Shown piece by piece: positions 28,734 through 46,923 of a stretch of DNA of 64,000 bases. The notes beneath the pieces were generated by a model. It searched no databases and was not told the DNA's origin. It saw only the letters and a program-made list of their open reading frames with translations. Both the position numbers and the translations under genes were made by a program. The stretch is from Streptomyces sp. HUAS MG91 (GTDB taxonomy: Bacteria; Actinomycetota; Actinomycetes; Streptomycetales; Streptomycetaceae), in NCBI RefSeq assembly GCF_040529335.1, contig NZ_CP159534.1, positions 6,510,001 to 6,574,000 on the forward strand, read 5' to 3'. Each line of letters begins with the position of its first letter. Position 1 is the stretch's first letter.

Positions 28734-30242
28734 ATGCTCACCCAGGCGCCGCATTCGCTACCGTACGTGTCCGACGCCCGCCGAGCCGCCCCGCACCCCG
28801 GCCCCGCCACGAGCCGCCCCGGCTACTGGAGACGCCTGCTCCCGCTGCTCGCCCTGCTCGCCTGCGCCACCCGCGTGCCCTCCTTCGCGCAGCCCCTGTG
28901 GAACCCCGACGAGGGCTATCTCGCCGTCCAGGCACGGATGCTGGCGCACGGCGGCACGCTCTACGAGACGGTCGTCGACCGCAAACCACCGCTCCTGCCC
29001 TGGCTGTACGAGGCGGTGTTCGCCGTCTTCGGATCGCAGTCGCTCACCCCGGTCAAGTGGTGCGCCGTGGCGGCGCAGTTGCTGACGGCGGTGCTGCTCG
29101 CGTCGACCGCGCGGCGCCGCTGGGGCGACGGCGCCGGGCGCACGGCGGGCGTGCTGTACCTCCTGGTCTCCGTCGGGCTCAACCCGGAGGACGCGCAGGC
29201 CGCGACCTTCGAGGTGTTCATGCTGCCGTGGACCGCGGCGGCCGTGTGGTGCGCCGACCGGCGCCGCTGGGGCTGGTGCGGCGCGGCGGTCGCGGGCGCC
29301 TTCCTCACCAAACAGACCGGCGCGGCCGTCCTGGTCCCGGTGGCCTGGACGCTGTGGCGGTGCGGGGCGCCGCGGGCGGACGTGGTGCGGTGCGCGGTGG
29401 GCGTGACGGTGCCGATCCTCGGGGCGGCCTGCGCGACCGACCCGGCCGGTTTCCTGTTCTGGACGGTGACCGGTTCGGGCGCGTACGCCTCCTTCACCGG
29501 CTCCGAACTCCACGTACTCGTACGGGGGTTGGTGAACGCGGCGATCCTCGGCGCGGCCTGCGCCGGAATCCTGCCGCCGGTCGTCCGCGTGCTGCGCATC
29601 GCCCGCACGGGCCACGGCGAGCTGTGGCTCTGGCTCGCCTCGTCGGCCGTGGCCGTCCTGGCCGGCTTCCACTTCTTCGGCCACTACTACCTCCAACTCA
29701 CGCCGCCGCTGGCGCTGTTGGGCACGGCGGCGCTCCAGATCCTGCCGCGCGACCGGCTCGTGCACGCCCTCCTCGTCTCCGTCTGCTGCTGCGGCGTCTT
29801 CGTCGGCTGGGGCCTGCTCGCCGTACGCCCCGACCTCGCCCACGCCCAGCGGGTCGCCGACGCGGTGCGGGCCCGCACCGCACCGCACGACCCGGTCCTG
29901 GTGTGGGGCATGCACCCGGAGACGTACTGGCTGGCCGACCGCACCCCGGCCACCCGCTTCCTGACGGCCGGCCTGCTCACCAACTACAGCGGCGGCCGGG
30001 ACGGCCCACAGGTGGGCGAGCGCTGGGCGGTACCGGGCACCTGGCACACCTTCCACACCGAATTCACGACCCGGCCCCCGGCGCTGGTGGTGGACGACTC
30101 GCGGGGGGATCCGTACGGGGTGGGGCGGGTGGCGTCGCTGCGGCGGATGCTGGGTTCGTACGAAGTGATCGCGCGGGTGGACGGAGCGGTGGTGTACGCC
30201 CCGACCGGCAGCCCTCAGGCGTCAGCCGCCGGTCGCGGGTGA
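28734..30242 (+). CDS. Polytopic membrane glycosyltransferase, GT39/ArnT-like
   Basis: This 502-residue protein has roughly 9-11 hydrophobic helices. Its first extracytoplasmic loop carries PLWNPDEGYLAVQARML, the acidic DE motif of polyprenyl-phosphate-sugar-dependent GT-C enzymes (PMT/ArnT family), followed by VVDRKPPLLPWLYE. The C-terminal 110 residues form a soluble domain with HDPVLVWGMHPETYWLADRT. It should transfer a sugar from a lipid carrier to an acceptor on the outer face of the membrane. Only about 14 bases separate the preceding terminator from the ATG and include TAGTTT, so the message may be leaderless. The last 21 bases overlap the convergent LCP gene. Being next to an LCP ligase and a sialic-acid-type cluster, it may decorate a wall polymer (inference). 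Confidence 0.82.
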   Translation: MLTQAPHSLPYVSDARRAAPHPGPATSRPGYWRRLLPLLALLACATRVPSFAQPLWNPDEGYLAVQARMLAHGGTLYETVVDRKPPLLPWLYEAVFAVFGSQSLTPVKWCAVAAQLLTAVLLASTARRRWGDGAGRTAGVLYLLVSVGLNPEDAQAATFEVFMLPWTAAAVWCADRRRWGWCGAAVAGAFLTKQTGAAVLVPVAWTLWRCGAPRADVVRCAVGVTVPILGAACATDPAGFLFWTVTGSGAYASFTGSELHVLVRGLVNAAILGAACAGILPPVVRVLRIARTGHGELWLWLASSAVAVLAGFHFFGHYYLQLTPPLALLGTAALQILPRDRLVHALLVSVCCCGVFVGWGLLAVRPDLAHAQRVADAVRARTAPHDPVLVWGMHPETYWLADRTPATRFLTAGLLTNYSGGRDGPQVGERWAVPGTWHTFHTEFTTRPPALVVDDSRGDPYGVGRVASLRRMLGSYEVIARVDGAVVYAPTGSPQASAAGRG

Positions 30243-31304
30243 CTTCTTCGCCGACTCGGGGATCGGGGAGTCGGTGCGGATCGCCTTCCACAGGGTGCTC
30301 GCCTGCGGTTCGGCGGCGACCACTCGGTTGGGATCGATCTTGTCGTAGGCGACCGGCAGCATGATCGTCTCCATCGTCTCCGGGTCGACGCCCTGGAGGC
30401 TGCGGCCGAACTCGGCGAGCGCCTTGAGGTTGGCCAGCTTGGAGTCGGTGGTCAGCGACGAGGTGAGGCTGTCCGCGATCTTGTACGTCTTGGTGGGGCT
30501 GCCCAGCAGGTCCTGCTTCTTGATCTCGCTCAGCAGGGCGATCATGAACTGCTGCTGGAGGCCGATGCGGCCGAGGTCGCTGCCGTCACCGATGCCGTGC
30601 CGAGTGCGGACGAAGGCGAGGGACTCGGTGCCGTCCAGCTTGTGGGTGCCCTTGGTCAGTTCGAGCCCGCTGGACTTGTCGTGGATCGCCTGGTCGACGG
30701 TGACGTTCACGCCGCCGATGGCGTCGACGAGGCCCTTGAAGCCCGCGAAGTCGATCTCCATGAAGTGGTCGAGGCGTACCCCGGACATCTTCTCGACGGT
30801 CTTGACCACGCAGGCCGGACCTGCCAGGGAGTACACGGAGTTGAACATCACGCGCTTCGCCGACGGCACGGTCGTGCCGTCGGTCTTGGTGCACTCGGGG
30901 CGGGTGACCAGGGTGTCGCGCGGGATGCTGACGGCGGTGGCCTGCTTGCGGCCCTCGGGTATGTGCATCACCAGGGCGGTGTCCGAGCGGGCGCCCGAGA
31001 CGTTGCCGGTCTTCAGCTTCGCGTTGGCGCCGGCCCGCGAGTCGGAGCCGAGGACCAGCACGTTCGTTCCGCTGGTCGGCAGCTTCTCGGGGCGGTCGGT
31101 GCCGATCGCCTTGTCGAGGTCGACGCCGTCGATGTTGCCGTTGAGGTTGCTGTAGAGCCAGTAGCCCGTGCCACCCGCGATGAGCACCAGGGCCAGCAGC
31201 CCGAAGACGACCCAGCGCAGCATGCGACGGCGCGGCCGGCGCGCACGTTCCTTTCGCCGGTGCCCGGAACGACGGGAAGGGGAAGCGTCGGTGTCGGAGC
31301 TCAT
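30222..31304 (-). CDS. LytR-CpsA-Psr (LCP) family cell-wall ligase
   Basis: This 360-residue protein has a basic cytoplasmic N-terminus (RRSGHRRKERARRPRRRMLR), one membrane anchor (WVVFGLLALVLIAGGTGYWL), then the extracellular LCP domain. Conserved elements are TNVLVLGSDSRAG, ARSDTALVMHIPEG, SIPRDTLV and FVRTRHGIGDGSDLGRIGLQ, which supply the Asp/Arg residues that bind the polyprenyl pyrophosphate. LCP enzymes transfer anionic glycopolymers from a lipid carrier to peptidoglycan, or in mycobacteria arabinogalactan. It is divergent from the nonulosonate cluster that starts at 31761, so it is a good candidate for the step that anchors that polymer. A promoter-like -10 lies about 130 bases upstream. 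Confidence 0.93.
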   Translation of the reverse strand: MSSDTDASPSRRSGHRRKERARRPRRRMLRWVVFGLLALVLIAGGTGYWLYSNLNGNIDGVDLDKAIGTDRPEKLPTSGTNVLVLGSDSRAGANAKLKTGNVSGARSDTALVMHIPEGRKQATAVSIPRDTLVTRPECTKTDGTTVPSAKRVMFNSVYSLAGPACVVKTVEKMSGVRLDHFMEIDFAGFKGLVDAIGGVNVTVDQAIHDKSSGLELTKGTHKLDGTESLAFVRTRHGIGDGSDLGRIGLQQQFMIALLSEIKKQDLLGSPTKTYKIADSLTSSLTTDSKLANLKALAEFGRSLQGVDPETMETIMLPVAYDKIDPNRVVAAEPQASTLWKAIRTDSPIPESAKKSPATGG

Positions 31305-31760
31305 CTCGCTCAATCCTCTGTACCTGAGTGCCCGGCGGTGGTCGAGGACCGGGCAGGGATGAACAGTGTGCTGATGCCGTGAGCGGTGGGGCGCTTCCAT
31401 GGCGCGGTCGTGATCGACCGGACTGGTGCCTGAAAACTATAGACGCGTCGTCAAGAGACGTTCACAAGAGGCAACAGAACGCCCAGGAGTATTCACGACG
31501 TGTGATGTGACCTCGGCAACTGCATCCCAAAGTGCGTCAAATCGGATATTTGGTCGACCACTGTCTGGACAAAGTAATGAATCAGGTGTGAATATTCGGT
31601 GCAGCCGTTCTACATGCAAGTTGTTGTGCCGGTTACGCCTGGGGGGGCGGTGTTGGACAACAAGGACAGTGTCGTCACGTATGGCTTCGCTGCTCACGTT
31701 GTAGGTCTGCCGACCAGGAGTGTTCCGGTCGGCTCGGAGACACTGATTTGAGGCACACAG
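31305..31760. other. Divergent regulatory region of the wall-glycopolymer cluster
   Basis: There is no gene in these 456 bases. The middle part (about 31430-31640) is markedly AT-richer than the flanking genes, which is unusual for this genome. It must contain the promoters of the LCP gene and the GT2 gene, but beyond the -10 noted separately I cannot assign elements. The AT-rich composition could mark strong promoters, silencing by Lsr2-type proteins, or past acquisition of the cluster. Confidence 0.45.
31436..31441 (-). promoter_or_regulatory. Candidate -10 element for the LCP gene
   Basis: On the minus strand TATAGT lies 17 bases after TGAACG, giving a vegetative-type promoter that would start transcription about 125 bases before the LCP start codon. 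The -35 match is weak, so the assignment is tentative. Confidence 0.35.
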
Positions 31761-32831
31761 ATGAAGCTCTCCGTTGTCGTGCCGATGTACAACGTACGGG
31801 ACTACTGCGTGACCACCCTCAAGTCCCTTGCGTTCAACGCTCGTCAGGACTTCGAGTTCATCGTGATGGACGACAGCTCCACCGACGGCACCTTCGAACT
31901 CCTGCAGCGTGAGATCCGCAAGGTCCCCGGCGGTTCGCTCTACCGGACGCCGAAGAACTCCGGGATCTCCGCCACTCGTAACGCGGGCCTGCGGATGGCC
32001 AGGGGCCAGTACGTGGCCTTCCTGGACGGTGACGACTGGTTCGCACCCGGCTACCTGAGCCGTCTGGTGGCGGCGATCGACCACTTCGGCGTCGACTTCG
32101 TGCGCACCGACCACATACGGGTGGTCGGCAAGAAGCGGGAGGTCGTGCGCTCTCCTCAGGCGGTGCGCAACACCCCGCTGCGGCCGATCGAGTCGATCAT
32201 GCCGGCGGACGCCTCGACCATGATCGACTATCCGTTGGTGTGGGCCGGTATCTTCAACCGCGAGGTGCTCGCCCGCCGCAACCTGCTGTTCTTCGACGAG
32301 AAGCTGCGCACCGCCGAGGACCGTATGTGGACCTGGCGGCTGCACCTCAACACGGACTCCTACGTCGCCGTCGACCTGGCGGGGCTGTTCTACCGGCGTG
32401 ATGTCAGCACGTCGCTCACCCGCATCCCGGACGAGCGCCAGCTCGACTTCATCCCCTGCTTCGACCAGGTGGTCCAGGAAGTGGCGGGCCATCAGTACGG
32501 CCGCCAGATCATGCCCAAGGTGATCCGCACCTACTGCGCCATGATGGCGATCCATCTGGACCGGGCCGACACGTACGAGGACGACGTCCGGGCGCTGCTC
32601 AAGAGCCGGACGGCCCGGGCGCTCGACCGTCTGCCGCAGCCCCTGCTGGAACAGACCCTGGACGAGATGGGCGAGCGCCGGGCGAAGCTGATCAACGCCG
32701 TGCGCGACCTGGGCGGTGAGGACGCCGACGTGCAGTACCTGCACGACGCCGACCGACCGCCGTCCCGGCGTGCCCGGAACGCCGAGCCGGCCCGACGGCC
32801 CGCGTCCCAGGCCTACGGTGTCACCGCCTGA
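31761..32831 (+). CDS. GT2-family glycosyltransferase
   Basis: This 356-residue GT-A enzyme opens directly with the nucleotide-sugar-binding strand MKLSVVVPMYNVRDYCVTTL. It contains the acidic motif MDDSSTDGTFELL, SGISATRNAGLRMARGQYVA and the DXD signature FLDGDDWF near residue 95. TAEDRMWTWRLH near 190 supplies the probable catalytic base. The last 40 residues are Arg/Pro-rich and disordered-looking. It is the first gene of the nonulosonate-type cluster and overlaps the next gene by one base (TGATG). It probably adds a hexose or HexNAc to the repeat unit or its linker; donor and acceptor are unknown. Confidence 0.92.
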   Translation: MKLSVVVPMYNVRDYCVTTLKSLAFNARQDFEFIVMDDSSTDGTFELLQREIRKVPGGSLYRTPKNSGISATRNAGLRMARGQYVAFLDGDDWFAPGYLSRLVAAIDHFGVDFVRTDHIRVVGKKREVVRSPQAVRNTPLRPIESIMPADASTMIDYPLVWAGIFNREVLARRNLLFFDEKLRTAEDRMWTWRLHLNTDSYVAVDLAGLFYRRDVSTSLTRIPDERQLDFIPCFDQVVQEVAGHQYGRQIMPKVIRTYCAMMAIHLDRADTYEDDVRALLKSRTARALDRLPQPLLEQTLDEMGERRAKLINAVRDLGGEDADVQYLHDADRPPSRRARNAEPARRPASQAYGVTA

Positions 32832-34600
32832 TGTCGACTCAGATATTCGTCGCCTCCACGCTCTACGGCGCCCTCACGCTCTCGGCTGCCATCGACGCCG
32901 GCCAGTTCGGCCCCGCCGCCGGCACCAGGCGGGTGCTCGTGGTGTGCACCAACACGGAGATACCCGAGGTCACGACGCCGCTCGACGCGATGCAGGGATT
33001 CGAGTCGCTGCGCCCCCGCTTCGACCTCGTGGTCTCCTGGAACGACGTGATCTTCCCGTACCACCCCAGCCTCTGGGACCCGCGCACCGAGGACGTGCCC
33101 ATGTGGCGTGAGCTCCTCGGTATCCGCTGGCAGTTGCCCTCGGGACCGATCGAGCTGGTCGTCGAGTCGATCCAGGTCAAACCCGCGCTCACCTTCTGCA
33201 AGATCTTCCGCAACGCGCGCATCACCGTCTACGCCGATGGCCTCATGACCTACGGTCCGACGCGCAATGCGCTCGCACGCGACGTCCACACGCGGATCCG
33301 CCGGACCCTCTACCTCGACCTGATCCCCGGTCTGCGCCCGCTGCTCCTCAGCGAATACGGCGTACCGGGTGAGCCGGTCGACCCCGGGGCCGTGCAGCGT
33401 GTCTTCGCCCAGTTCGGCCAGTCGTGCGGTCCGGCCCTCGCGTCGCTCATTCCCGCCGGCTTCCCGGAGGGACGCAGTGGCGCCGCCATGCTGCTCGGCC
33501 AGTACCTGTCGAGCATCGGCCTGCTGACGGAGGAAGAGGAGGAGCAGCTGCATCTGCGGATGTTCGAGGCCGCCGCCAACCTCGGCTTCACCTCGGTCCT
33601 GTTCAAGCCCCACCCCAGCGCGCCGCAGAGCTTCAGCGACTCCCTGGTCGTCAGGGCCCGCGAACTGAACATCCAGATCGTGGTCCTGGAGACGCCACTG
33701 CTCGCCGAGGCGGTCTTCGGATACCTGCGGCCGGGTGTGGTGATCGGTTGCTTCTCCACGGCTCTGTTCACCGCCCGCGCCGTCTATGGGATTCCCGCCG
33801 CCGCGGTCGGTGCCGCCGAGGTCCTGCGCAAGATGCGGCCCTACCCGAACAGCAACCGCATCCCCGTGACCATCTGCGAGGTCGCGCTGCCCGACGTCGA
33901 GGGCAGTGGCTTCGAGGCCCAGGACCTGCTCGGCGATCCGCGCTGGGTCCAGCAGGAACTGGCCGAGTACATCGCCGCGGTGGGGTACTGCATGCAGCCC
34001 GAGCGCAACCCGCACCTGCGGGACCGCGCCGTCGCCTACGTCGGCCGGGTCCTGCCCCACATGGACGTACGGCCGGTGCTGCACATGCACTTCAAGCCCG
34101 ATCTGCTCTACAAGCTGTCGCTGCCCGGAGCGCCTTCCGACGCCGAATGGCAGGAGATGGAGGCGGAGCGGGCCCGCGAGGGCAAGAAGCGCCGGGGCGG
34201 GCCGATGGTCAAGCCGTCCCAGGAGTCGCTCACGATCGACTCGTTCGTCGAATTCCTCGAAGCGGGTGAGTTCGAGGTGGCGCGCCGTATCGGCGAACAG
34301 ATCCTCAAGGAACGCAAGCCCATGGACGTGCTGGTCGGCATGGCCCGCATCCACATCTGGGAAGACGACTTCGAGAAGGCGAAGGGAATGCTCTCGCGTG
34401 CCGCGATGACCGGCGACGAACGGGCGATGACGTGGATCAAGATCGCTGAGGTCGCCGCCCTGATGGGGCGCGAGGGCAAGCAACTGCGCATTTTCGCGGC
34501 GCAGGAGGCTCTGCGTATCAACCCCGAGTCCGCGGCGGCGGCCCGGCTCGTCACCGCGCGGGGGGCACGCAGGATGGCGAAGTCGATGGCCCCGGGCTGA
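32831..34600 (+). CDS. Polysialyltransferase-family protein (POLYSIA-like) with C-terminal extension
   Basis: This 589-residue protein has an N-terminal segment (TQIFVASTLYGALTLSAAID) and central motifs that resemble bacterial alpha-2,8-polysialyltransferases: FTSVLFKPHPSAPQSF (the HP motif needed for CMP-sialate use) around residue 260 and GVVIGCFSTALFTARAVYGI (the Ser-Thr motif) near 305. After about residue 440 there is a Lys/Arg/Glu-rich hinge and a helical, TPR-like C-terminal region (EFEVARRIGEQILKERKPMD, then repeated helix pairs) not found in the short enzymes. It is coupled to the upstream GT2 gene. With CMP-nonulosonate synthesis encoded downstream, it is the best candidate for the polymerase of a Kdn or sialic-type chain. 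Confidence 0.82.
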   Translation: MSTQIFVASTLYGALTLSAAIDAGQFGPAAGTRRVLVVCTNTEIPEVTTPLDAMQGFESLRPRFDLVVSWNDVIFPYHPSLWDPRTEDVPMWRELLGIRWQLPSGPIELVVESIQVKPALTFCKIFRNARITVYADGLMTYGPTRNALARDVHTRIRRTLYLDLIPGLRPLLLSEYGVPGEPVDPGAVQRVFAQFGQSCGPALASLIPAGFPEGRSGAAMLLGQYLSSIGLLTEEEEEQLHLRMFEAAANLGFTSVLFKPHPSAPQSFSDSLVVRARELNIQIVVLETPLLAEAVFGYLRPGVVIGCFSTALFTARAVYGIPAAAVGAAEVLRKMRPYPNSNRIPVTICEVALPDVEGSGFEAQDLLGDPRWVQQELAEYIAAVGYCMQPERNPHLRDRAVAYVGRVLPHMDVRPVLHMHFKPDLLYKLSLPGAPSDAEWQEMEAERAREGKKRRGGPMVKPSQESLTIDSFVEFLEAGEFEVARRIGEQILKERKPMDVLVGMARIHIWEDDFEKAKGMLSRAAMTGDERAMTWIKIAEVAALMGREGKQLRIFAAQEALRINPESAAAARLVTARGARRMAKSMAPG

Positions 34601-34710
34601 CCCGCGTGGCTGTGCCTGGCGCTACCGATGCCCGGTCGCAGAACCGTTCGTGCAGGGTCGCCCGTCAAACCGGCGGGACGACACCGAGCTGAGAAGGAAT
34701 GACACAGGCG

Positions 34711-35994
34711 ATGCGTATCCACGTACTCGCCGACTCCGACACCCGATGGAAGTGGGGTGGGGAGTTGGCACAACGGCTCCACCCCCGTCCCTGGGTGCAC
34801 GCACACATGCTCAACGGCAGGGCCACGCCCACCGCGCGGCAGATGGCCGAAGTGGGCATCGAGCCCGCCGCGGTGACCCAGTCGTCCGTGAGCGAGTTCG
34901 TGAACAGCCCTGAACTCGCCCAGGCCGACGTGCTGATCGTGGGCTCCGTCGGCGGCACCACACAGGCGGTGCTCCACGGTCTGGCCCGCGCCTTCGAAGG
35001 CGCCCAGCACCGCCCGGTCCTGGTGACCGGTTACGTGGGCGTCGTCTACGAGAATCTGACGGACGGTCTGCTGTTGCGCGCGGGCGCTGACGTGGTGCTG
35101 GCCAACAGCCCCTTCGACGCCCGCAGGTTCCGGGAGATCTACCGGGGCCTGGACATCGACGACAGCTGCGTGGTCCAGACGGCGCTGCCCTTCTTCGCCG
35201 ACCAGCAGTACGACCCGCTGCGCACCGGAGCGACCCATCCGTTCACGGTCACCTTTGCCGTGCAGCCTTCCGTGCCCGAGGACCGCGACGGACGGATCTA
35301 CGTCCTGCGTCGGGCCATTCAGCACGCCCGGCTGCGGCCCGGCCGCGAAGTGCTGATCAAGCTGCGCTCCAAGCCGGGCGAACAGACCACTCACATCGAG
35401 CCCTACCACTACCAGACGCTCGCCGAGCAGCTGGGTGAGCCGCTGCCCCCCAACCTGCAGTTCGTCTACGGCAACATGGCCGAGGTGCTCGACCGCACCG
35501 ACCTGCTGGTGACGGTCAGTTCCACGGCGGCGCTCGAATCGATGCACCGCGGCATTCCCACGGTGATCCTCAGCGACCTCGGAGTCCGCGAGCCGCACGG
35601 CAACCACTACTTCACCGGGTCGGGCTGCGTCGCCTCCTGGAACGAGATCGACGAAGGCGCACAGCCCTTCGCCCATCCCGGCTGGCTGGAGGAGCAGGGC
35701 ATCCTGGCCCGGGATCCGTACGCTCAACTGCGCGAGCGCGTCGAGCAGTTGACGCGGCGGCAGCTGCCGCCGATCCGGCCGTACTACACCATGCAGAACG
35801 CCGCGGGCTATCTGCCCCGGCTCCTGGCCAGGCGAGGCCTGGCCCCCGACGGTATTCCGCTGCCCCACTCAGCGGGTGCCGACGGCCGACGCCCCGGCCT
35901 GATGGCCCGAACGTCACGGAAGGCGCTTCGCCGCGCCTACCGGTTCGGGGTGCAGAACGTGGCGCCGAAGATTCAGCGGTGGGGCGGGCTCTGA
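34711..35994 (+). CDS. DUF6716-type putative glycosyltransferase
   Basis: This 427-residue protein begins MRIHVLADSDTRWKWGGELA, the signature start of a family found beside sialic-acid-type genes in actinobacteria. It has a two-lobed GT-B-like layout: PVLVTGYVGVVYENLTDGLL in the first lobe, and VLIKLRSKPGEQTTHIEPYH with LLVTVSSTAALESMHRGIPT in the second. The latter two echo the HP and SST motifs of the polysialyltransferase-like neighbour. The ATG at 34699 is also possible, but GAGAAGG is then one base away; from 34711 it is far, so the start is uncertain by four residues. It probably transfers the activated nonulosonate or a linking sugar, but no member has a biochemical role that I can state. 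Confidence 0.8.
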   Translation: MRIHVLADSDTRWKWGGELAQRLHPRPWVHAHMLNGRATPTARQMAEVGIEPAAVTQSSVSEFVNSPELAQADVLIVGSVGGTTQAVLHGLARAFEGAQHRPVLVTGYVGVVYENLTDGLLLRAGADVVLANSPFDARRFREIYRGLDIDDSCVVQTALPFFADQQYDPLRTGATHPFTVTFAVQPSVPEDRDGRIYVLRRAIQHARLRPGREVLIKLRSKPGEQTTHIEPYHYQTLAEQLGEPLPPNLQFVYGNMAEVLDRTDLLVTVSSTAALESMHRGIPTVILSDLGVREPHGNHYFTGSGCVASWNEIDEGAQPFAHPGWLEEQGILARDPYAQLRERVEQLTRRQLPPIRPYYTMQNAAGYLPRLLARRGLAPDGIPLPHSAGADGRRPGLMARTSRKALRRAYRFGVQNVAPKIQRWGGL

Positions 35995-36109
35995 GACCGG
36001 GCCCGACCCTCTCCTCCCTCGCCTTCCCCCCTCACCTCAGCCTGTCCGGGCACAGCAGCACGCTGCGCGTCCCCGGATGCTCCCGTCTTTTCCCACCACG
36101 AGGTATGTC

Positions 36110-37309
36110 ATGTCAGCAGATGCAGCCCCCGTCGTCGTCGCCGTCATACCGGCGCGCGGCGGCTCCAAGGGCATCCCGGGCAAGAACGTCGCACCGGTCG
36201 GCGGGGTGTCCCTCATCGGCCGCGCCGTCAGGGCCTGCCGTGCCGCGGAGCGGGTGACGCGGGTCGTGGTGAGCACGGACGCCGAGGACATCGCGGCCGA
36301 AGCGCGACGGTACGGCGCCGAGATCGTGGACCGTCCGGCCGAACTCGCCTCGGACACGGCATCCAGCGAGGCCGCGCTGCTGCACGCTCTCGACACCGTC
36401 GAGGAGCGGCACGGCGACCTCACCGACGTGCTGCTGTTCGTCCAGGCGACCAGCCCGTTCCTGACGACCCGTGACATCGAGGGTGTCGTCTCCGCCGTGC
36501 TGGACGAGGGCGCCGACTCGGCCTTCACCGCCTCGCCCTTCCACGGGTTCGTCTGGCAGGGGGTGCGCGAGGCGGACAGGAGTGCGGTGCAGGCCGCCCA
36601 GGGCGTCAATCACGACAGCGCCGAGCGGCTGCGCCGGCAGGACCGCCCCGAGGAGTTCCTCGAGACGGGCGCGGCCTACGCGATGCGCGCCCAGGGCTTT
36701 CGCGACAAGAACCACCGCTTCTTCGGCAATGTCGCCCTCGTCCCCGTGGGGCCGGACCGCACTCTTGAGATCGACGAGCCGGCCGACCTGGAGCGGGCCC
36801 GCGTCCTCGCTCCGCTCATGGACGAGCCGGTTTTCCCGACCCGCGCCGACATCGACGCGGTCGTCCTCGACTTCGACGGCACCCAGACCGATGACCGCGT
36901 CTGGATCGACGCGGACGGCCACGAGACGGTCGCCGTCAACCGGGGTGACGGCATGGGGATCTCCCGCCTGCGCAAGGCCGGAGTGCCCGTCCTCATCCTC
37001 TCCAGCGAGACCAATCCCGTGGTCGCCGCCAGGGCACGCAAGCTCGACATCCCCGTGATCCACGGCGTCGAGAGCAAGGACGTCGAACTGCGCAAGTGGT
37101 GCGAGGCCGAGGGGATAGCCCCCGAACGGATCCTCTACGCCGGCAACGACGTCAACGACCTGCCCTGCTTCGAACTCGTCGGCTGGCCTGTGGCCGTGGC
37201 CGATGCCCACGACATCGTCCGTGAACGAGCACGCGCCGTGACCACGTCACGCGGGGGCCACGGCGTTGTCCGCGAAATAGCAGCACACCTTCTTGGAAAG
37301 GCACTTTGA
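36110..37309 (+). CDS. CMP-nonulosonate synthetase fused to a KdsC-like HAD phosphatase
   Basis: A 399-residue fusion. Residues about 8-235 form a cytidylyltransferase of the NeuA/KdsB family: VVAVIPARGGSKGIPGKNVA is the CTP-binding start, then VLLFVQATSPFLTTRDIEG and a TLEIDEPADLERA end. Residues about 245-395 are a C0-type HAD phosphatase: DAVVLDFDGTQTDDRVWID (nucleophile and acid Asp), VLILSSETNPVVAARARKLD, and YAGNDVNDLPCFELVGWPVA. One chain could thus dephosphorylate a 9-phosphorylated nonulosonate and then activate it with CTP. That chemistry matches the Kdn route, in which Kdn-9-phosphate is the synthase product. The stop overlaps the next gene by four bases. Confidence 0.9.
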   Translation: MSADAAPVVVAVIPARGGSKGIPGKNVAPVGGVSLIGRAVRACRAAERVTRVVVSTDAEDIAAEARRYGAEIVDRPAELASDTASSEAALLHALDTVEERHGDLTDVLLFVQATSPFLTTRDIEGVVSAVLDEGADSAFTASPFHGFVWQGVREADRSAVQAAQGVNHDSAERLRRQDRPEEFLETGAAYAMRAQGFRDKNHRFFGNVALVPVGPDRTLEIDEPADLERARVLAPLMDEPVFPTRADIDAVVLDFDGTQTDDRVWIDADGHETVAVNRGDGMGISRLRKAGVPVLILSSETNPVVAARARKLDIPVIHGVESKDVELRKWCEAEGIAPERILYAGNDVNDLPCFELVGWPVAVADAHDIVRERARAVTTSRGGHGVVREIAAHLLGKAL

Positions 37310-39272: not shown

Positions 39273-40394
39273 TCAGATCCGCTGCCACTGGCCGAGTTGG
39301 AGCCCGTCGGGCGACACCTGCCGGGTGACCTGAGGCATCCCCTCGGGGTCGATGACAGCCAGCACGATCCTGCCGTACGCGTCCAGGGCGACCGTCGGAT
39401 CACCGAGGCAGGGACGGCTCACCTCGGCCCACTGGACGCCCCACTCCTCGGCGTTGGTGATGAACGCGCCGAAGACGGGGTTGTCGTTCAACCCCCGGTG
39501 CACGAGGACCGTGCAGTCCTGTCCGTCGACGAGAGTGCGCAGCGCACTCACCGCGCCGCCCCCCGGAACGCCCCCGATCGGCACGATGCTGCCGTCCGGG
39601 CGGACCGCGAGCAGGCCGGGGGAGTAGGCGTCACCGACATAGAACGTGAGCTGGTCGTCCGAAGTCTCCAGGGCCGTACCCGTCCCCGGCACCATCGTGA
39701 TGTGGACGTCGGTGAGCCGCTCGAACGAACCGCCCTGGGACTTCTGCTGCCAGTGATGCACCGGCTTGTCGGAGGGGGCCAGGACACCGATGCGTCCCCG
39801 GGACGTGACGCCCACCGTCACCCCGTCGTGCAGGGCGCTGCCCCGCAGGTCCTGCCACGCCTTCCACTTGCCGTCCTTGTCCTCGTGGCGCAGGTGCAGA
39901 CCGCGGCCCGCGTTACGGGCGAAGACGTGCAGGATGCCTGCGTTGTCCACGGCGCCGACCGGACGGCCGAGGCGGGGATGGCGGTCGTCGGTCTCCTTGT
40001 GCGGGTTGGCCAGCGCGCGCCAGTCGTTGAGGGGACGGCTCGACTGGTACTGCATGGTGTACATGAGGTCGACGGAACGGCGTCCGTCGCCGTGCTTGCG
40101 CACCCGGTACGCGAGGAAGTGCAGATAGCCGTCGGCCCCCTGCGCGATGGAGAGGTGGCTCAGCCCCGGAGGGACGGGAAAGAGCTCGGGGCCCACCCAC
40201 TCCGGCCCGCCGGGGCGCGTCTCCGTCCAGCGCAACAGGCCGTCGGCGTTCAGAGCGAAGAGGGTGAGACGGCCGTCGGAACCACGGGTGAGCCACTTGC
40301 CGCCCACCGGGCCGTCGGCCCGGTGCGAAGAGAGGGGCGCATCGTAGTGCCGCACGTCCACTGTGCTCTGCGGACCTCTCCCTCTGCGCCGCAT
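39273..40394 (-). CDS. Beta-propeller-like (lectin-type) protein, paralogue of the protein at 46965
   Basis: This 373-residue protein has no clear signal peptide. It is made of repeated units with W/G-D-G-R-L patterns such as GGKWLTRGSDGRLTLFALNA, LSIAQGADGYLHFLAYRVRK, VGAVDNAGILHVFARNAGRG and VGVTSRGRIGVLAPSDKPVH, as in PLL/FucL-like seven-bladed propellers that bind glycans. The protein at 46965 shares the unit order and phrases such as RPGGP and LHLRHEDKDGKWKAWQDLRG versus its ISMRAQAEKGGWEPWRDLKG, so the two are duplicates. It converges with the nonulosonate operon with 21 bases between stops. The lack of an obvious export signal is odd for a lectin; a sensor or intracellular role is possible. 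Confidence 0.75.
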   Translation of the reverse strand: MRRRGRGPQSTVDVRHYDAPLSSHRADGPVGGKWLTRGSDGRLTLFALNADGLLRWTETRPGGPEWVGPELFPVPPGLSHLSIAQGADGYLHFLAYRVRKHGDGRRSVDLMYTMQYQSSRPLNDWRALANPHKETDDRHPRLGRPVGAVDNAGILHVFARNAGRGLHLRHEDKDGKWKAWQDLRGSALHDGVTVGVTSRGRIGVLAPSDKPVHHWQQKSQGGSFERLTDVHITMVPGTGTALETSDDQLTFYVGDAYSPGLLAVRPDGSIVPIGGVPGGGAVSALRTLVDGQDCTVLVHRGLNDNPVFGAFITNAEEWGVQWAEVSRPCLGDPTVALDAYGRIVLAVIDPEGMPQVTRQVSPDGLQLGQWQRI

Positions 40395-40645: not shown

Positions 40646-41611
40646 ATGCACCTACGCGGCATTTGCGGCACGGTTCTCGCCGCACTCCTGCTCCTCCTCG
40701 GACTCGGGGCGCCTGCCCGGGCCGCGACGACGACCACCGCCGTCGCCGCCCACACGCTGTGGCAGTGGAATGTCGCGGGCAACACCCTGCACCATGCCTC
40801 GACCACGGACGGCCTGATCGGGCAGGCGGTCGCCTCCATCGCCAGCCGTGACGCCGACCTCGTAGCCCTGAACGAGCTGTGCAAGGGCCAGTACACGGCC
40901 CTCGTCGACGCCCTGCGTGCGGCCGGCTGGCCCCAGGACAGCGCCAACTTCGCCCGGTTCGAGCCCTCCCTGCCCGCGGGTACCGCGGCCTGCCGGGGCC
41001 AGGAGTACGGCTCGGCCGTCTTCAGCAGGGCGCCGTTGGGCTCGGCCGACCGCGTCACACTGCCCGACGACGGCAACGCCGAGCAGCGCAAGCTTCTGTG
41101 TGCCCCCTTGCGTGACACCCCGCACCTGCGGTTCTGCACCACGCACATCACCACCAGCAACGAAGTCTCCGCCAACGGCCTCGCGAACAACGTGAATCAG
41201 CTGAACGCGGTGCTCGACACCATCGAGGGCTTTCATGCGGCGGGTGACACCGTGCTGATCGCGGGAGACTTCAACGCCCAGCCCCACTACTCCCGCCTCG
41301 ACCCCTACTACTCCCGGACCTTGTCGACGCCCAGCAACGCGTCGAACACGGGCAGCTATCGCGAGCTGGACGACAACGACGCCGACCACTGCCTCGGATA
41401 CGGCGAATGGACCGCCGCAGGCACCCCGGGAGCCACCCCGCCCTGTGGCCAGGAGTACGCCAAGATCGACCTGATGTTCGTCCGGGAGGACCGGATCGTC
41501 GGCGCCTACTCCGCCGACTCGCTCGGCATCTCCACCGCGTGCACGGGCGTCGCCGCGTGCTCCGACCACCGCATCGTGGTGGGATCCGCCACCGTCCAGT
41601 ACGAGCTGTGA
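40646..41611 (+). CDS. Secreted endonuclease/exonuclease/phosphatase (EEP) family protein
   Basis: A 321-residue exported protein with a Sec signal (GICGTVLAALLLLLGLGAPA, cleaved near ARAA). The EEP fold is visible: LWQWNVAGNTLHHA (first strand, Asn metal site), LVALNELCKGQYTALVDALR (catalytic Glu), FCTTHITTSNE, VLIAGDFNAQPHYSRLDPYY (Asp/Asn pair), KIDLMFVRED and ACSDHRIVVG (general-base Asp-His). The family cleaves phosphodiesters in nucleic acids, inositol phosphates, sphingomyelin or wall polymers. Paired cysteines suggest disulfides. The next gene, a phosphodiester glycosidase, starts ten bases after the stop, so the pair may process an extracellular phosphodiester-linked glycan. A second EEP protein is encoded nearby on the other strand. 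Confidence 0.87.
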   Translation: MHLRGICGTVLAALLLLLGLGAPARAATTTTAVAAHTLWQWNVAGNTLHHASTTDGLIGQAVASIASRDADLVALNELCKGQYTALVDALRAAGWPQDSANFARFEPSLPAGTAACRGQEYGSAVFSRAPLGSADRVTLPDDGNAEQRKLLCAPLRDTPHLRFCTTHITTSNEVSANGLANNVNQLNAVLDTIEGFHAAGDTVLIAGDFNAQPHYSRLDPYYSRTLSTPSNASNTGSYRELDDNDADHCLGYGEWTAAGTPGATPPCGQEYAKIDLMFVREDRIVGAYSADSLGISTACTGVAACSDHRIVVGSATVQYEL

Positions 41612-41621: not shown

Positions 41622-43286
41622 TTGACTGCACGTTCTGGTGGTCGGCGCCGTGTCGCCCGCATGGTGGCCGTCGGCTCGCTGCTCGCAGCGGCCGTGCTGC
41701 TGCCGCGGACTCCGACCGGTGCCGCTGACGGGGGCCGGATGCCCCTCGGTCCCGACGACCTGGTGACGCAGTACGGAGAGACGCGCACCCTGGCACCCGG
41801 GGTGACGTACCAAACGATGACTCAGGGCACCTCGGACGGCCACTGGACCGTCTGGGCCCAGAGGAACAAGACCGAGACGTTCGGCAGCAAGGCCGCGGCC
41901 GAGGCCTTCGCGGCACAGCTCGCCGACGAGGGGTTCAGCGGGGTCGTCGATGCCTTCACGGCTCCGGCCGCGGCGGACGGGGCAGGCGGCCTGTTCGGCT
42001 ACGGGGTGCGGGTGGGGGTGTTCCCCACGGACCGCAAGGCGTCGGCCGACCGGCTGGCGGGTTGGCTGCGGACGGCGGACACGGCGGAGGCGGACTTCGA
42101 CGCCCGCGTGATCTACTCCGCCATGGACGGCGATGCCGGCACCGGCCCCTGGAAGGTGCACGTGGTGCGGGTCGCTCCGAGCGCCGCGGTGACCTTCAAG
42201 GCGGTTCACGGCACCGATGTCTCGTCCGCCGAGACGGTACGGAGCATGGCCACGGCAAGCGGAGCGCTCGCAGCGGTCAACGGCACTGAGTTCGACATCC
42301 ACACACTCTCCGGATTCTCGAATTACGAGGGCGTGCCGCAGGGGCTCTACGTCCAGGACAACGTCCTGCTGAGCGCCGCCAACAACGGCCGCACCGCCCT
42401 GCTTCTGGAGGGCGCGGGCGCCCGCGCCCGGATCGCCGAGGTCACGTCCAGCGTGCAGGTGACGGCACCCAACGGTGATGTGCGCGTCCTCGACGGGGTC
42501 AACCGCGTGCCGGGCGGCGTGCTCGGCTGCGGGGGAGTGGGCGGCGACCAACTCTCCATGAACGGTGTACTGACGCAGACGGATCGCCCCTGGCGCAATC
42601 AGCTCTGCACCGACGACAGCGAGATCGTCGTCTTCCGCCCGGAATGGGGCGCCAAGACTCCTGGGCCTCGCAAAGAGGTGACGATCAGCGTCGACGTCGT
42701 GATGAACGGCAATTGGGTCGTCCAGCAGATCCGCTCCCCTGCCGGTGGCGCCATTCCGGCCGGAGGCCGGGTCCTCCAGGGCATCGGCGAGGGGGCCGAC
42801 TGGCTCACCCGACACGCCACGGTGGGCGCGACGTTCAAGCCGGGTGCCTCCATCAAGGACATGTCGGGCGCTTCCGTCACCAGCCCCACCCTCTCGGCGG
42901 TGGCCGGCGGTGGACCGGCCCTGGTACGGGGAGGCGAAGTCTTCCTCAACACCAAGGCCAACGGCATGACCAACTTTGCGTACGGCCCCAACAGCACGCT
43001 GGTGCAGCGCCATCCGCGCAGCATGGCCGGTGCCACCGCCTCCGGCGAACTGCTTCTCGTCACCGTGGACGGCCGCGACCCCGCTGTCAGCGTGGGTGTC
43101 AGCTGGCCGGAGGCCGCCGAGGTCATGAAGTGGCTGGGGGCGACCGATGCCGTCGGGCTGGGCAGTGGCGGTGACGCGACGATGGTGGTCGCCGGAGAAC
43201 TGGCCAACTCCCCGATGGACGACTGGGGTGCCCAGCCGTCCGAACGGAAGGTGAGTACGGCGGTGGTGGTTGTGCCGAAGGCCTGA
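41622..43286 (+). CDS. Secreted phosphodiester glycosidase (NAGPA-domain) with SPOR-like segment
   Basis: This 554-residue exported protein starts at TTG 41622, with GTGAGGA upstream overlapping the stop of the EEP gene. A signal peptide spans the first 35 residues (ARMVAVGSLLAAAVLLPRTP). Residues about 60-125 resemble a SPOR peptidoglycan-binding repeat (WTVWAQRNKTETFGSKAAAE). The NAGPA domain follows: AVNGTEFDIHTLSGFSNYEG, GVPQGLYVQDNVLL, LLLVTVDGRDPAVSVGVSW and MKWLGATDAVGLGSGGDATM. The last normally reads DGGGS(S/T)TM; here the acidic residue is lost, so the active site may be altered. Family members hydrolyse GlcNAc-1-phosphodiesters, as the mammalian uncovering enzyme does, or wall teichoic-acid linkages in bacteria. 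It is co-transcribed with the EEP gene. Confidence 0.85.
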   Translation: MTARSGGRRRVARMVAVGSLLAAAVLLPRTPTGAADGGRMPLGPDDLVTQYGETRTLAPGVTYQTMTQGTSDGHWTVWAQRNKTETFGSKAAAEAFAAQLADEGFSGVVDAFTAPAAADGAGGLFGYGVRVGVFPTDRKASADRLAGWLRTADTAEADFDARVIYSAMDGDAGTGPWKVHVVRVAPSAAVTFKAVHGTDVSSAETVRSMATASGALAAVNGTEFDIHTLSGFSNYEGVPQGLYVQDNVLLSAANNGRTALLLEGAGARARIAEVTSSVQVTAPNGDVRVLDGVNRVPGGVLGCGGVGGDQLSMNGVLTQTDRPWRNQLCTDDSEIVVFRPEWGAKTPGPRKEVTISVDVVMNGNWVVQQIRSPAGGAIPAGGRVLQGIGEGADWLTRHATVGATFKPGASIKDMSGASVTSPTLSAVAGGGPALVRGGEVFLNTKANGMTNFAYGPNSTLVQRHPRSMAGATASGELLLVTVDGRDPAVSVGVSWPEAAEVMKWLGATDAVGLGSGGDATMVVAGELANSPMDDWGAQPSERKVSTAVVVVPKA

Positions 43287-43554: not shown

Positions 43555-45342
43555 TCACCAGCTCCCGGGCAGCAAGATCCGTGGAGCGAATCCGTCGGTG
43601 GCCGCGATAGTGCCGTCCGCTGCCCAGAACCACAGTTCGTCGGTCGTCCTGGCGCGACCCACGAGGTCGTCACGGCCGTCGCCGTTCAAATCGGCCGCTG
43701 CGAGATCGGTGAAGTTGCCCCATCCCGAGCCGACGATTTTCACGGTGCTGAACAGGTCGGGGGCGCCGCCTCCCAGCCCGGCCCAGTACTGCAGTCGGTC
43801 CGTAGCGGTGTTCCGTCCGACCAGATCGGTGGTGCCGTTACCGTCGAAGTCACCCGCGGCCAGGTCGGTGAGGCCGCTCCAGTCGCCCGTCACGTCCACG
43901 GGGGCGGTGAACCCTGACGTGCCCGGCGCCGTCCTGCCCGTGCCCGCCCAGAAGCGGAGTGAGCCTGTCGCTGCTTCCCGGGCGATCAGGTCGTCGTGAC
44001 CGTCCCCGTCGAAGTCGCCTGCGACGGTGTCTCGATAGCGGGACCAGTCGGCGGTGACCGGGGTGTGCGCGGCCAGGCCGTCCCCGGTGCCGGGCGCGCC
44101 GGCCGTTCCTTCACCGGCCCAGAACTCCAGTGTTCTCAGGCCGACGGCGCGACCGATCACGTCAGTCCGGCCGTCCGCGTCGAAGTCGCCAGTGGCGAAG
44201 TCGGTGTAGTTGTCCCAGGCGTTGCCCAGCACGGCGGGCGTGCCCAGGCCCGAGGCCGCCGCGGAGGTGGTGCCGGACCCGGCCCAGAAGTTGAGGGTGC
44301 CGCCCTGAGCTGTCCGCGCGAGCAGATCGTCGTGTGTGTCGGCGTTGAGATCCCCCGCGAAGATGTCGACGTACTGGGACGGAACAAGGGTGAACGACGC
44401 CTTCAGGAGGGCGTGATCGGACTCGGCGAACGCGGTGGCTGCCAAGGACGGTGCGGTGAAGTGGCGGCGATCGGCGAAGACGTAGTCGATCTTCCGTGCC
44501 GATGCGGTGGGGGCTCCGTTGCGGCAGCGCACTGTGCCGGTCGCGGGACAGGTGACCCCACCGGTGCTGGTCTCGGCGAACCAGGCGGGGTTCGTCTCGT
44601 CCGCCTCCAGGAAGCGGCCGATGGGCTGCGCCGTCGCGTCCTTCGAGCTGTGCGTGTGGTCGTAGAGGTGGGCGAGCCCGCCCTCGTTGGGCTGCAGGTT
44701 CAGATCGGCGCCGAGTACCACCGGCGTGTTGACGGGGAAGAGTGACGGGTCGGCCGTCCAGTCGGCTATCTCCTGGAGCTGTTCGGGCGCTGCGGCGTAG
44801 GTGTGTGCCGTGCACGCCTTCAGGGGGCGGCCGTCGTAGCTGGTGTTGGCGCACAGCAGCCCTCGCTTGACCTCCACAGTCCGCCCGTCATTGGTGTACG
44901 TCTCGTCTCCGGTGTGGACGAAGGCGTGGTATTCCTGGACGTCGTCCGGGACGTCCTGGCGGCTGAGCACCGCCGAGCCGAAGCGCTTGTCCGATCCGCA
45001 GTTGACGACATTGTCCTGTGACGAGGCGTAGGTGCCGTCCATGGTCCACCCCGCCCGCGTCAGCTGCAGCTTTAGCGCCGCGTATTGGGACAGGCAGATC
45101 TCGTCGACGGTGATGATGTCGGGCTGATAGGACGAAGCCTCCGTCACGAGGCGGGCGACGGACGTGCCCTCGCCGGTTCCGCCGAGGTTGTTGGGGCAGG
45201 CGTAGGCAGCGCCGCACAGGTTGTAGTGGATGACCTTGAGCTGAGGTCCTGTGGTTCTGGCCTCGGCCGTGCCGCTCCCGGCCAGGAACGAGGCGCACAG
45301 GAGCAGCGCGGCTACCGCCACACGAATGAATGTTCTCTTCAC
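43555..45342 (-). CDS. Secreted EEP-family phosphodiesterase with five FG-GAP/VCBS repeats
   Basis: This 595-residue exported protein starts at GTG 45342 (signal RTFIRVAVAALLLCASFLAG). An EEP domain fills about residues 35-300: LKVIHYNLCGAAYACPNNLG, IITVDEICLSQYAALKLQLT, VVLGADLNLQPNEGGLAHLY and IDYVFADRRHF, with AESDHALLKASF closing it. It is followed by five beta-propeller FG-GAP-type repeats, each marked by an EF-hand-like calcium loop: DLNADTHDD, DFDADGRTD, DFDGDGHDD, DFDGNGTTD, DLNGDGRDD. The repeats probably form a calcium-stabilised propeller that binds a glycan or surface. The catalytic half is paralogous to the EEP protein at 40646. The Shine-Dalgarno sequence is weak, so the start is less certain than the domain call. 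Confidence 0.87.
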   Translation of the reverse strand: MKRTFIRVAVAALLLCASFLAGSGTAEARTTGPQLKVIHYNLCGAAYACPNNLGGTGEGTSVARLVTEASSYQPDIITVDEICLSQYAALKLQLTRAGWTMDGTYASSQDNVVNCGSDKRFGSAVLSRQDVPDDVQEYHAFVHTGDETYTNDGRTVEVKRGLLCANTSYDGRPLKACTAHTYAAAPEQLQEIADWTADPSLFPVNTPVVLGADLNLQPNEGGLAHLYDHTHSSKDATAQPIGRFLEADETNPAWFAETSTGGVTCPATGTVRCRNGAPTASARKIDYVFADRRHFTAPSLAATAFAESDHALLKASFTLVPSQYVDIFAGDLNADTHDDLLARTAQGGTLNFWAGSGTTSAAASGLGTPAVLGNAWDNYTDFATGDFDADGRTDVIGRAVGLRTLEFWAGEGTAGAPGTGDGLAAHTPVTADWSRYRDTVAGDFDGDGHDDLIAREAATGSLRFWAGTGRTAPGTSGFTAPVDVTGDWSGLTDLAAGDFDGNGTTDLVGRNTATDRLQYWAGLGGGAPDLFSTVKIVGSGWGNFTDLAAADLNGDGRDDLVGRARTTDELWFWAADGTIAATDGFAPRILLPGSW

Positions 45343-45454: not shown

Positions 45455-45808
45455 CTACCGTTCCGGCCACACGGTCCGCGGCCCGGCGCACCTGGCGCCC
45501 AACTCCTCCACCCGGCGCCTGAGTTCACGATCAGCGGTGACCACCGCCACAGGCCGCTCGGCATGCTCGACGAAGCCCACGATGTGGTCGTCACCGCTGC
45601 CGGAGGCCGACTCGACCCGCACGCCGGGCACCGACTCCACGCCCCGCGCCGCGCCCTCGACGACCAGGACCACCGTGGCCCCGGTGCGCTCGGCGTGCCC
45701 GGCGAGGTGGTCCCGCAGGCGCTCGGCGGCCCCGCGCCGGTCGCGCCACCAGCCGTCCGGCACCGAGCCGACGACATTCGCCCCGTCGACCAGCAAGATT
45801 TCGTCCAT
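45455..45808 (-). CDS. NYN/YacP-like PIN-fold putative RNA-binding nuclease
   Basis: This 117-residue protein begins MDEILLVDGANVVGSVPDGW, the PIN/NYN signature with the first metal-binding Asp, and continues RDRRGAAERLRDHLAGHAER. A later strand, VTADRELRRRVEELGARC, holds the second acidic cluster. YacP/Rae1-type proteins are ribosome-associated or structured-RNA nucleases; small actinobacterial versions are uncharacterised. The start at 45808 fits the domain edge; longer frames add residues with no conservation. It is divergent from galU and lies 112 bases before the start of the EEP/FG-GAP gene on the same strand. Confidence 0.82.
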   Translation of the reverse strand: MDEILLVDGANVVGSVPDGWWRDRRGAAERLRDHLAGHAERTGATVVLVVEGAARGVESVPGVRVESASGSGDDHIVGFVEHAERPVAVVTADRELRRRVEELGARCAGPRTVWPER

Positions 45809-46002
45809 GGGGACAGGATCGCAAAAGGTTGTACGCGCGGCAGTTGCGCTTTGGCATAGATCGAGGGCCGGTTGCGAATCACTTCCCCCGGACACCCGTG
45901 ATGTCCGGTAGGTCATAAAACGGTGATCGTCTGTGTGGCTACTGTGAAGACGTCCGACGATCATGAGAGGGCGCCGCGTCACCGCCGCGCCAGGAGACAA
46001 CC

Positions 46003-46923
46003 GTGCCAGTCAAGAACACCCGCGCCCGCAAGGCCGTCATCCCCGCCGCAGGGCTCGGTACCCGCTTCCTCCCCGCCACCAAGGCGACCCCCAAGGAGAT
46101 GCTGCCGGTCGTGGACCGGCCGGCCATCCAGTACGTGGTCGAGGAGGCCGTGCGCAGTGGGCTCGACGACGTGCTCATGGTCACCGGACGCAACAAGCGG
46201 GCGCTGGAGGACCACTTCGACCGCGCCTACGAGCTGGAGCACCTGCTGGAGCTGAAGGGCGACGCCGCCAAGCTCGCGCACGTGCGGGCGTCGAGCGAAC
46301 TGGCCGACGTGCACTACGTCCGCCAGGGCGACCCGCTCGGCCTCGGCCACGCCGTGCTCGCCGCGGAACCGCACGTCGGCGACGCCCCGTTCGCCGTCCT
46401 GCTCGGCGATGACCTCATCGACGAGCGCGACCCGCTGCTCGCCCGGATGCTGGAGATCCAGGAACAGCGCGGAGGCAGCGTGGTCGCCCTCATGGAGGTG
46501 GAGGACGACCGGACCCACCTGTACGGGTGCGCGGCGGTGGCCCCGGTCGAAGGCGGGGCCGACGACGAGCTGGCCGTCACCGACCTCGTCGAGAAGCCCG
46601 AGCCGGGCACCGCGCCCAGCAACCTCGCGGTGATCGGCCGCTACGTCCTCGCCCCGCAGATCTTCGGCATCCTGCGCGAGACCCCGCCGGGCCGCGGCGG
46701 CGAGATCCAGCTGACGGACGCCCTGCGGCAGCTGGCCCTCGACCCGGAGCTGGGCGGCCCGGTCCACGCCGTGGTCTTCCGGGGCAGGCGCTACGACACC
46801 GGGGACCGCGGCGACTACCTGCGCGCCGTCGTCCGGCTGGCCTGCGAGCGCGAGGATCTCGGCCCGGAGTTCCGGACCTGGCTCGGAGAGTTCGTCCGGG
46901 AGCAGGGGATTCTGCCCGTCTGA
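46003..46923 (+). CDS. galU: UTP-glucose-1-phosphate uridylyltransferase
   Basis: This 306-residue nucleotidyltransferase makes UDP-glucose from UTP and glucose-1-phosphate. It carries RKAVIPAAGLGTRFLPATKA (UTP-binding GxGTRxLP) and TPKEMLPVVDRPAIQYVVEE. QGDPLGLGHAVLAAEPHVGD, the metal-binding VLLGDDLID, DLVEKPEPGTAPSNLAVIGR and GRRYDTGDRGDYLRAVV follow. GTG at 46003 has CAGGAGAC upstream. UDP-glucose feeds wall glycopolymers, exopolysaccharide and trehalose synthesis. Its position next to the nonulosonate/remodelling cluster suggests a supply role, though the gene is also widely syntenic and may serve general metabolism. Confidence 0.93.
   Translation: MPVKNTRARKAVIPAAGLGTRFLPATKATPKEMLPVVDRPAIQYVVEEAVRSGLDDVLMVTGRNKRALEDHFDRAYELEHLLELKGDAAKLAHVRASSELADVHYVRQGDPLGLGHAVLAAEPHVGDAPFAVLLGDDLIDERDPLLARMLEIQEQRGGSVVALMEVEDDRTHLYGCAAVAPVEGGADDELAVTDLVEKPEPGTAPSNLAVIGRYVLAPQIFGILRETPPGRGGEIQLTDALRQLALDPELGGPVHAVVFRGRRYDTGDRGDYLRAVVRLACEREDLGPEFRTWLGEFVREQGILPV

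Follow-up and report, generated by a model that had tools for sequence, protein, structure and literature searches.

A Probable Allele of an Exchangeable Wall-Glycopolymer Locus Carries a Second Kdn-Type Gene Set in Streptomyces

In pneumococcal cps loci, conserved flanks surround alternative polymer cassettes. The wall polymers of Streptomyces are little understood. The closest described relative of the gene set studied here is the teichulosonic-acid (Gal-Kdn) cluster SCO4873–SCO4882 of S. coelicolor (Kdn, 3-deoxy-D-glycero-D-galacto-non-2-ulosonic acid), which two reports place under the control of PhoP (PMC13011467, PMC2824715); teichulosonic acid is described as phosphate-free (PMC11481543). 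Umbrella toxins target the Utr teichuronic-acid (TUA) locus of S. griseus, and the 2025 umbrella-toxin paper notes that some toxin targets have no known TUA genes and suggests further surface carbohydrates as receptors (PMC13274773). Here we analyze positions 28734–46923 of a 64,000-nucleotide stretch of Streptomyces sp. HUAS MG91 (NZ_CP159534.1, 6,510,001–6,574,000; the window), for which a preliminary description had proposed a single Kdn-type wall-polymer locus with anchoring and remodeling genes. We consider it probable that an exchangeable, serotype-like locus for wall glycopolymers is represented in the window by one of its alleles, and that this allele makes a second Kdn-type polymer beside the one of the canonical, genus-wide cluster.

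Results

Core Genes of the Cassette

The teichulosonic-acid set of GT2, polysialyltransferase-like enzyme, DUF6716, CMP-synthetase, NeuB, and a protein without a Pfam family is found all together in the window, between a ligase gene and a propeller gene. The eight core genes are:

30222–31400, minus strand: LytR-CpsA-Psr (LCP) ligase, transcribed divergently to the operon (PF03816, E 1e-47)
31761–32831, plus strand: GT2 glycosyltransferase, operon gene 1 (PF00535, E 1e-29)
32831–34600, plus strand: polysialyltransferase-like enzyme (polyST) with a C-terminal TPR-like stretch (PF07388, E 3e-29; TPR_19, E 3e-4)
34699–35994, plus strand: DUF6716, putative glycosyltransferase (PF20471, E 9e-109)
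36077–37309, plus strand: CMP-nonulosonate synthetase fused to a KdsC/Kdn-9-P-phosphatase-like domain (PF02348)
37306–38229, plus strand: NeuB-type nonulosonate synthase (PF03102, E 4e-84)
38226–39251, plus strand: no-Pfam protein, predicted GT-B fold, candidate CMP-Kdn transferase (predicted model)
39273–40394, minus strand: PLL-type beta-propeller lectin-like protein (profile against Photorhabdus PLL/PHL lectins, best E 9e-18)

The synthesis genes all point in the same direction and the LCP gene diverges from them. The gene families named in the preliminary description were all found at or near the positions it gave, and its gene overlaps were confirmed as 1 base for GT2/polyST and 4 bases each for CMP-synthetase/NeuB and NeuB/no-Pfam protein. 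The fused CMP-synthetase matched PseF, NF007019, TIGR01670, and NF058599, all under the curated cut-offs. For NeuB, PF03102 was the sole Pfam family at E ≤ 0.01, with no SAF domain reported, and the alignment to NeuB-type chains of the PDB extended only to residue 276–295. The PDB sequence search returned nothing for polyST, in which HP (261–262) and S–T (309–310) are invariant across the 29 copies aligned, from slot and canonical loci together.

Pfam gave nothing convincing for the no-Pfam protein (best E 0.0015, unrelated families), Glyco_transf_52 appeared at only E 0.38 and in 2 of 45 members, and there were zero PDB sequence matches. Its predicted model has a GT-B fold closest to bacterial polysialyltransferase (5wcn and 5wc6, at 10–11% identity), which suggests a candidate CMP-Kdn transferase. 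The motifs of the bacterial sialyltransferase fold are D/E-D/E-G, HP, and S-S/T: DDG and ST are present and invariant in the no-Pfam protein, and HR replaces the HP expected from bacterial polysialyltransferase.

A Chromosomal Slot with Alternative Cassettes

Full-length relatives of the window polyST occurred in 7 of 392 Streptomyces genomes, four at 76–100% identity (own genome included) and three at 50–51%, and a contig search with the no-Pfam protein confirmed one relative, Streptomyces sp. KL109B. The eight core genes stand together in all eight Kdn slot loci. Each of these lies between permease and HCDH genes, with DXS and thiolase visible beyond in seven, and the KL109B stretch ends inside the permease and fadB; the slot is flanked by dxs/permease on one side and fadB–fadA (HCDH/thiolase) on the other. 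In the G136 slot (L026, L027), DUF6716 was matched as three pieces, which may reflect a broken gene or a faulty assembly.

We surveyed the slot in 14 genomes and then in 60 more chosen mainly for contiguity from 121 drawn; with G000, G014, and G038 added and a duplicate stretch (L043) dropped, the survey covered 76 of the 121. Cassette kinds were defined by Pfam from seven of the first loci and then sought by tblastn. One of six recognized glycopolymer cassettes was found in 26 of the 76 genomes, and two kinds together in none: Kdn in 3, TagF2 in 7, TagF1 in 4 (one with PGA_cap), Stealth in 6, IspD-SDR in 4, and HAS-like in 2. The remaining slots were classed as PGA_cap only (6), gap below 5 kb (38), large unrecognized (3), and undetermined (3). 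Because other Streptomyces carry unrelated wall-polymer genes there, the slot looks like a site of surface-coat swapping.

The capsule-type gene PGA_cap was seen in the slots of L039, L053, L058, L066, L069, L079, and L081, two of the seven with LCP. Three slots of 8–11 kb without a recognized cassette (L097, L101, L104) may represent further polymer kinds.

In S. coelicolor, dxs is SCO6013. FadAB is reported there as SCO6027–SCO6026 and SCO6020 is given as LCP in a review table, so the slot would correspond to SCO6013–6026. Judged by titles and abstract openings, it is undescribed in the literature searched.

Exchange of the Cassette and Its Propeller

We compared the window with a close relative, G059 (L038), in steps of 200 bases. 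The identity was 93–100% over 26200–28599 and 92–98% over 48133–50332, and 73–97% in the steps nearest the cassette (28600–30199 and 46933–48132). Within LCP it was 89% up to 31264, where strong identity stops. Beyond that point the Kdn synthesis genes had no match in the G059 slot, which carries a GT2-TagF protein and the phosphodiester glycosidase NAGPA (TagF2 cassette); identity persisted at 63% for the propeller, 61% for part of NAGPA, and 78% for a stretch of a small NYN-type gene.

We then counted the changes of cassette kind on gene trees of 26 cassette slots and compared them with shuffled labels. On the permease tree, which represents the flank, cassette kind changed 14 times in comparison with 15.4 in shuffled data (53 of 200 shuffles as low), and the LCP tree gave the same numbers with 46 of 200 as low. 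The propeller tree required 9 changes versus 15.6, and none of 200 shuffles was as low. For the Kdn kind alone, the propeller tree gave 2 changes versus 6.3 (0 of 500 as low), and the permease and LCP trees 6 each. Across 49 propeller copies, cassette-less slots included, there were 15 changes versus 29.5 (0 of 200 as low). In the tests on 26 slots, four of the seven Kdn slots had been fetched because they bear the cassette, relatives of a second, paralogous propeller were excluded from the propeller tree, and multipropeller slots were represented by the copy nearest the window's. By the permease-tree test and the comparison with G059, cassette type is independent of backbone ancestry; the label tests indicate that a cassette tends to take its propeller along when it moves, and that LCP remains with the chromosome.

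Propellers of the 39273–40394 type were present in 21 of the 26 cassette slots versus 12 of 47 others (Fisher 7e-6), and in 8/8 Kdn slots. The propeller profile matched seven Photorhabdus PLL/PHL sequences of the PDB at E 9e-18 to 9e-13, and the PLL-type propeller probably recognizes or escorts the matching polymer.

A Second, Diverged Copy

NeuB was present in 111 of the 121 Streptomyces genomes drawn, and two close copies (≥80% identity) in only 3, own genome included. The canonical-type NeuB locus of this genome is at C1:5.246 Mb, 1.3 Mb from the window locus, and all seven slot-cassette genomes (7/7) also hold a second NeuB elsewhere. In the canonical order, polyST and GT2 face away from a run of DUF6716, CMP-synthetase, NeuB, and the no-Pfam protein; this order was found in 15 of 18 canonical-type loci fetched and in the C1:5.246 Mb copy; L017 and L018 have their best polyST match elsewhere, and L006 shows the last three genes only. 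In L036 and L004 (own canonical locus), the GT2–polyST pair occurs twice. The canonical-type gene set agrees with published descriptions of SCO4873–4882; the likeness is drawn through these descriptions and the loci fetched. We rejected the window cassette as the SCO4873–4882-type locus itself: the canonical-type copy is at C1:5.246 Mb, and the slot copies of the no-Pfam protein and DUF6716 form a separate tree group. The link to the known Streptomyces Kdn polymer drawn in the preliminary description is apt, and the locus is a second, rare one rather than the genus-wide one.

One rival hypothesis, in which the slot copy redundantly duplicates the canonical teichulosonic-acid cluster and yields the same polymer, draws support from the shared gene set and from NeuB, which is 87% identical between the two own copies. 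The other genes speak against it. Identity within the own pair is 62% for CMP-synthetase, 54% for DUF6716, 54% for GT2, 51% for the no-Pfam protein, and 46% for polyST. Canonical copies among themselves average from 66% (polyST, range 46–95) to 92% (NeuB); DUF6716, GT2, and the no-Pfam protein range over 66–97%, and the transferase averages are 66–77%, above the 46–54% of the own pair. Slot and canonical copies fall into two groups, at 100/100 support, in the trees of the no-Pfam protein (26 rows) and DUF6716 (24 rows). The gene order in the slot differs from the canonical one, and the two acyltransferase genes and the TPR/pyruvyl-transferase-like gene near the own canonical locus were not seen in the slot. 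The slot allele is probably an old, diverged relative of the genus-wide cluster. The step that makes the sugar is conserved, in contrast to the transferases; this suggests that the two loci build different polymers from the same sugar.

The fused phosphatase gives a further point in favor of the duplicate. A KdsC-like phosphatase domain was found in both copies of G000, G014, G211, and G136 (4/4, one slot type) and was missing from both copies of G038, G362, and G173 (3/3, other slot type), where the best TIGR01670 match anywhere had E 0.003; no copy in the nine genomes searched reached the curated TIGR01670 cut-off. This parallel presence and loss is consistent with a shared precursor route for the two copies. 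A change of NeuB specificity in the phosphatase-lacking genomes was considered and no clear switch was seen: apart from the ends (1–5, 298–301), the sole fully separated NeuB column was 272 (A, Q, or E versus T).

Pairs of GTTCAY spaced by 22 bases were present in 10 of 16 canonical promoters examined, own included, and in 0 of 8 slot loci, which also stands against a redundant duplicate. This difference is only suggestive, since the repeat was chosen after viewing the canonical promoters, the slot loci contribute few stretches (one intergenic stretch each, but six for the window's), and the species compared are relatives of one another. As the S. coelicolor cluster is reported to be PhoP-controlled and the pairs were not found in the slot loci, phosphate may not control the slot copy. 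A PHO-box scan of the window with a direct-repeat-unit (DRu) consensus gave 4 sites at ≥18/22 versus a shuffled mean of 6.5 and was uninformative. On balance, we think a redundant duplicate unlikely.

Association with an LCP Ligase

LCP accompanied a recognized cassette in 25 of 26 slots and was present in 6 of 47 others (Fisher 7e-13, relatedness ignored; 73 measured slots, PGA_cap-only slots counted among the 47). Traced over the 72 loci of a permease tree, the cassette was gained or lost 15 times and LCP 14 times, and supported branches give at least 13 changes of each; the link therefore spans more than one lineage. The preliminary description of a Kdn-type wall-glycopolymer set with an LCP ligase is supported by this association and by the eight core genes in 8/8 Kdn slots, and its secreted remodeling genes drop out (see below). 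The cassette could instead make a cell-surface or protein-linked nonulosonate glycan that the slot ligase does not anchor, an idea in line with the lack of a recognized exporter in the cassette and with LCP following the chromosome rather than the cassette. The presence of LCP in every Kdn slot and in nearly all cassette slots argues against it, and we regard it as quite unlikely.

Accessory Genes

The other genes of the stretch and its edge are:

28725–30242, plus strand: PMT_2-type GT-C membrane glycosyltransferase (PF13231, E 2e-12)
40646–41611, plus strand: secreted hydrolase of the endonuclease/exonuclease/phosphatase (EEP) family (nuclease/phosphatase; EEP1), accessory (PF03372)
41622–43286, plus strand: secreted phosphodiester glycosidase (NAGPA), accessory (PF09992, E 2e-25)
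43555–45342, minus strand: secreted EEP + FG-GAP protein, start corrected (PF03372, PF13517; signal-peptide-like start)
about 45455–45814, minus strand: small gene of NYN/YacP-like type (Pfam match at E 2e-4, under the cut-off)
46003–46923, plus strand: second galU-like uridylyltransferase, accessory (PF00483)
46965–47996, plus strand: second, paralogous propeller gene, just outside the studied stretch (as query, matches propeller genes of other loci at 34–39%)

The likely start of the EEP + FG-GAP gene is near 45342 instead of 45882, because a signal-peptide-like stretch begins there. The over-long frame had concealed the NYN-type gene, whose own frame finds matches in 60 of the 80 further slot loci that were searched. 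The matches to the over-long frame are mostly the NYN gene: it matched 29 pieces beyond the window, and 19 of these stop short of residue 196. True EEP + FG-GAP relatives occur in KL109B and, as a piece with 52% identity, in the Stealth slot L068; a few other matches are weak FG-GAP or mixed ones.

The preliminary description suggested that all parts serve one polymer and named, as an observation that would refute this, secreted genes that fail to co-occur with the biosynthetic set in related genomes. For the secreted genes this is largely what the distribution shows, each occurring in at most 2 of 8 Kdn slots. NAGPA and EEP + FG-GAP are shared by the window slot and that of KL109B only. An intact EEP1 was found in one Kdn slot, and KL109B retains a fragment of it; galU occurs in one Kdn slot and one Stealth slot, with another galU-like copy, 77% identical, in the genome. 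The secreted genes and galU look like slot residents rather than parts of the Kdn unit, and membership of the secreted enzymes in that unit was rejected on their distribution. A single functional locus in which secreted phosphodiesterases and a glycosidase remodel the Kdn polymer, suggested by proximity and by the retention of NAGPA and EEP + FG-GAP in KL109B, is very improbable given that both are absent from 6 of 8 Kdn slots, that NAGPA outside the Kdn slots is confined, among the cassette kinds surveyed, to TagF2 (6 of 7 slots), and that teichulosonic acid, reported as phosphate-free, leaves a phosphodiester glycosidase without an obvious substrate in the chain.

PMT_2 GT-C is likewise accessory and occurs independently of the cassette, in 2 of 8 Kdn slots and in 10 of the 47 slots that have none of the six cassettes, and the second propeller, in 29 of 73 measured slots, shows no cassette association (Fisher 0.62). 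Elsewhere in the window, a large RHS-repeat protein with DUF6531 (3509–7054, minus strand) is of a type known from polymorphic toxins.

Discussion

The route that we propose for the allele runs as follows. NeuB would condense mannose-6-phosphate and phosphoenolpyruvate to Kdn-9-phosphate, and the fused enzyme would dephosphorylate this and activate the product to CMP-Kdn. A chain could then be assembled by GT2, polyST, DUF6716, and the no-Pfam protein with its predicted GT-B fold; an exporter not recognized among the cassette genes scanned would move it out, and the LCP ligase would join it to peptidoglycan. The PLL-type propeller appears to be exchanged along with the synthesis genes. The sugar, its linkages, the order of the steps, and the role of the lectin are inferred in this scheme; what we observed directly are the gene families, the second copy, the slot, the mutual exclusion of the recognized cassettes, the association with LCP, and the behavior of the trees.

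Several observations weigh against this reading, the lack of a recognized exporter among them. Kdn as the sugar is deduced from homology to the S. coelicolor cluster, and the curated family scores stay under cut-off. LCP ligases serve many polymers, so we only infer that this one anchors the slot polymer; six slots without any of the six cassettes hold LCP, and it is absent from one HAS-like slot (L048). The divergence of polyST alone is not outlying, as canonical polyST copies differ as widely among themselves; the no-Pfam protein tree carries a long-branch warning; and the NeuB tree does not cleanly separate slot and canonical copies. G038, G362, and G173 are probably one lineage. The cassette kinds were set from the first loci viewed, three large slots fit none of them, and the survey took in 76 of the 121 genomes drawn. 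On the propeller tree, the other kinds taken singly cluster weakly (30 to 80 of 500 shuffles as low), and the propeller–cassette link rests mainly on the Kdn slots.

A bolder picture is possible, although we lean against it: a genus-wide coat-switching locus in which the polymer cassette and a matched PLL-type lectin are swapped as a unit by recombination in shared LCP/fadB flanks, with LCP staying as a general anchor, and in which the swaps would alter the receptors for phages and umbrella toxins. For the question of further receptors, an additional polymer locus of this exchangeable kind, whose cassettes are predictable and come with a partner lectin, offers concrete genes. The new part is the exchange and the lectin linkage; the second, exchangeable nature of the locus had been missed in the preliminary description.

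Among known systems, the Photorhabdus PLL/PHL lectins share the propeller sequence relationship; the window propeller differs in having no evident signal peptide and in sitting in a polymer synthesis locus. The Utr TUA locus of S. griseus likewise has variable wall-polymer genes at one place, reported near wall teichoic acid genes and ribosomal L21/L27 (PMC13274773), whereas our slot lies between dxs/permease and fadB–fadA and whole cassettes of unlike chemistry alternate in it. With the SCO4873–SCO4882 type, seen through the canonical-type loci fetched, the slot shares the synthesis families, with NeuB of slot type A 82–92% identical to that of those loci, and it differs in chromosomal place, gene order, diverged transferases, an additional C-terminal polyST region, the linked LCP and lectin genes, and the canonical promoter repeats, which were not found. 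The slot differs from capsule and serotype loci such as pneumococcal cps in its putatively LCP-linked wall polymers and its lectin partner, and shares with them conserved flanks around alternative polymer cassettes.

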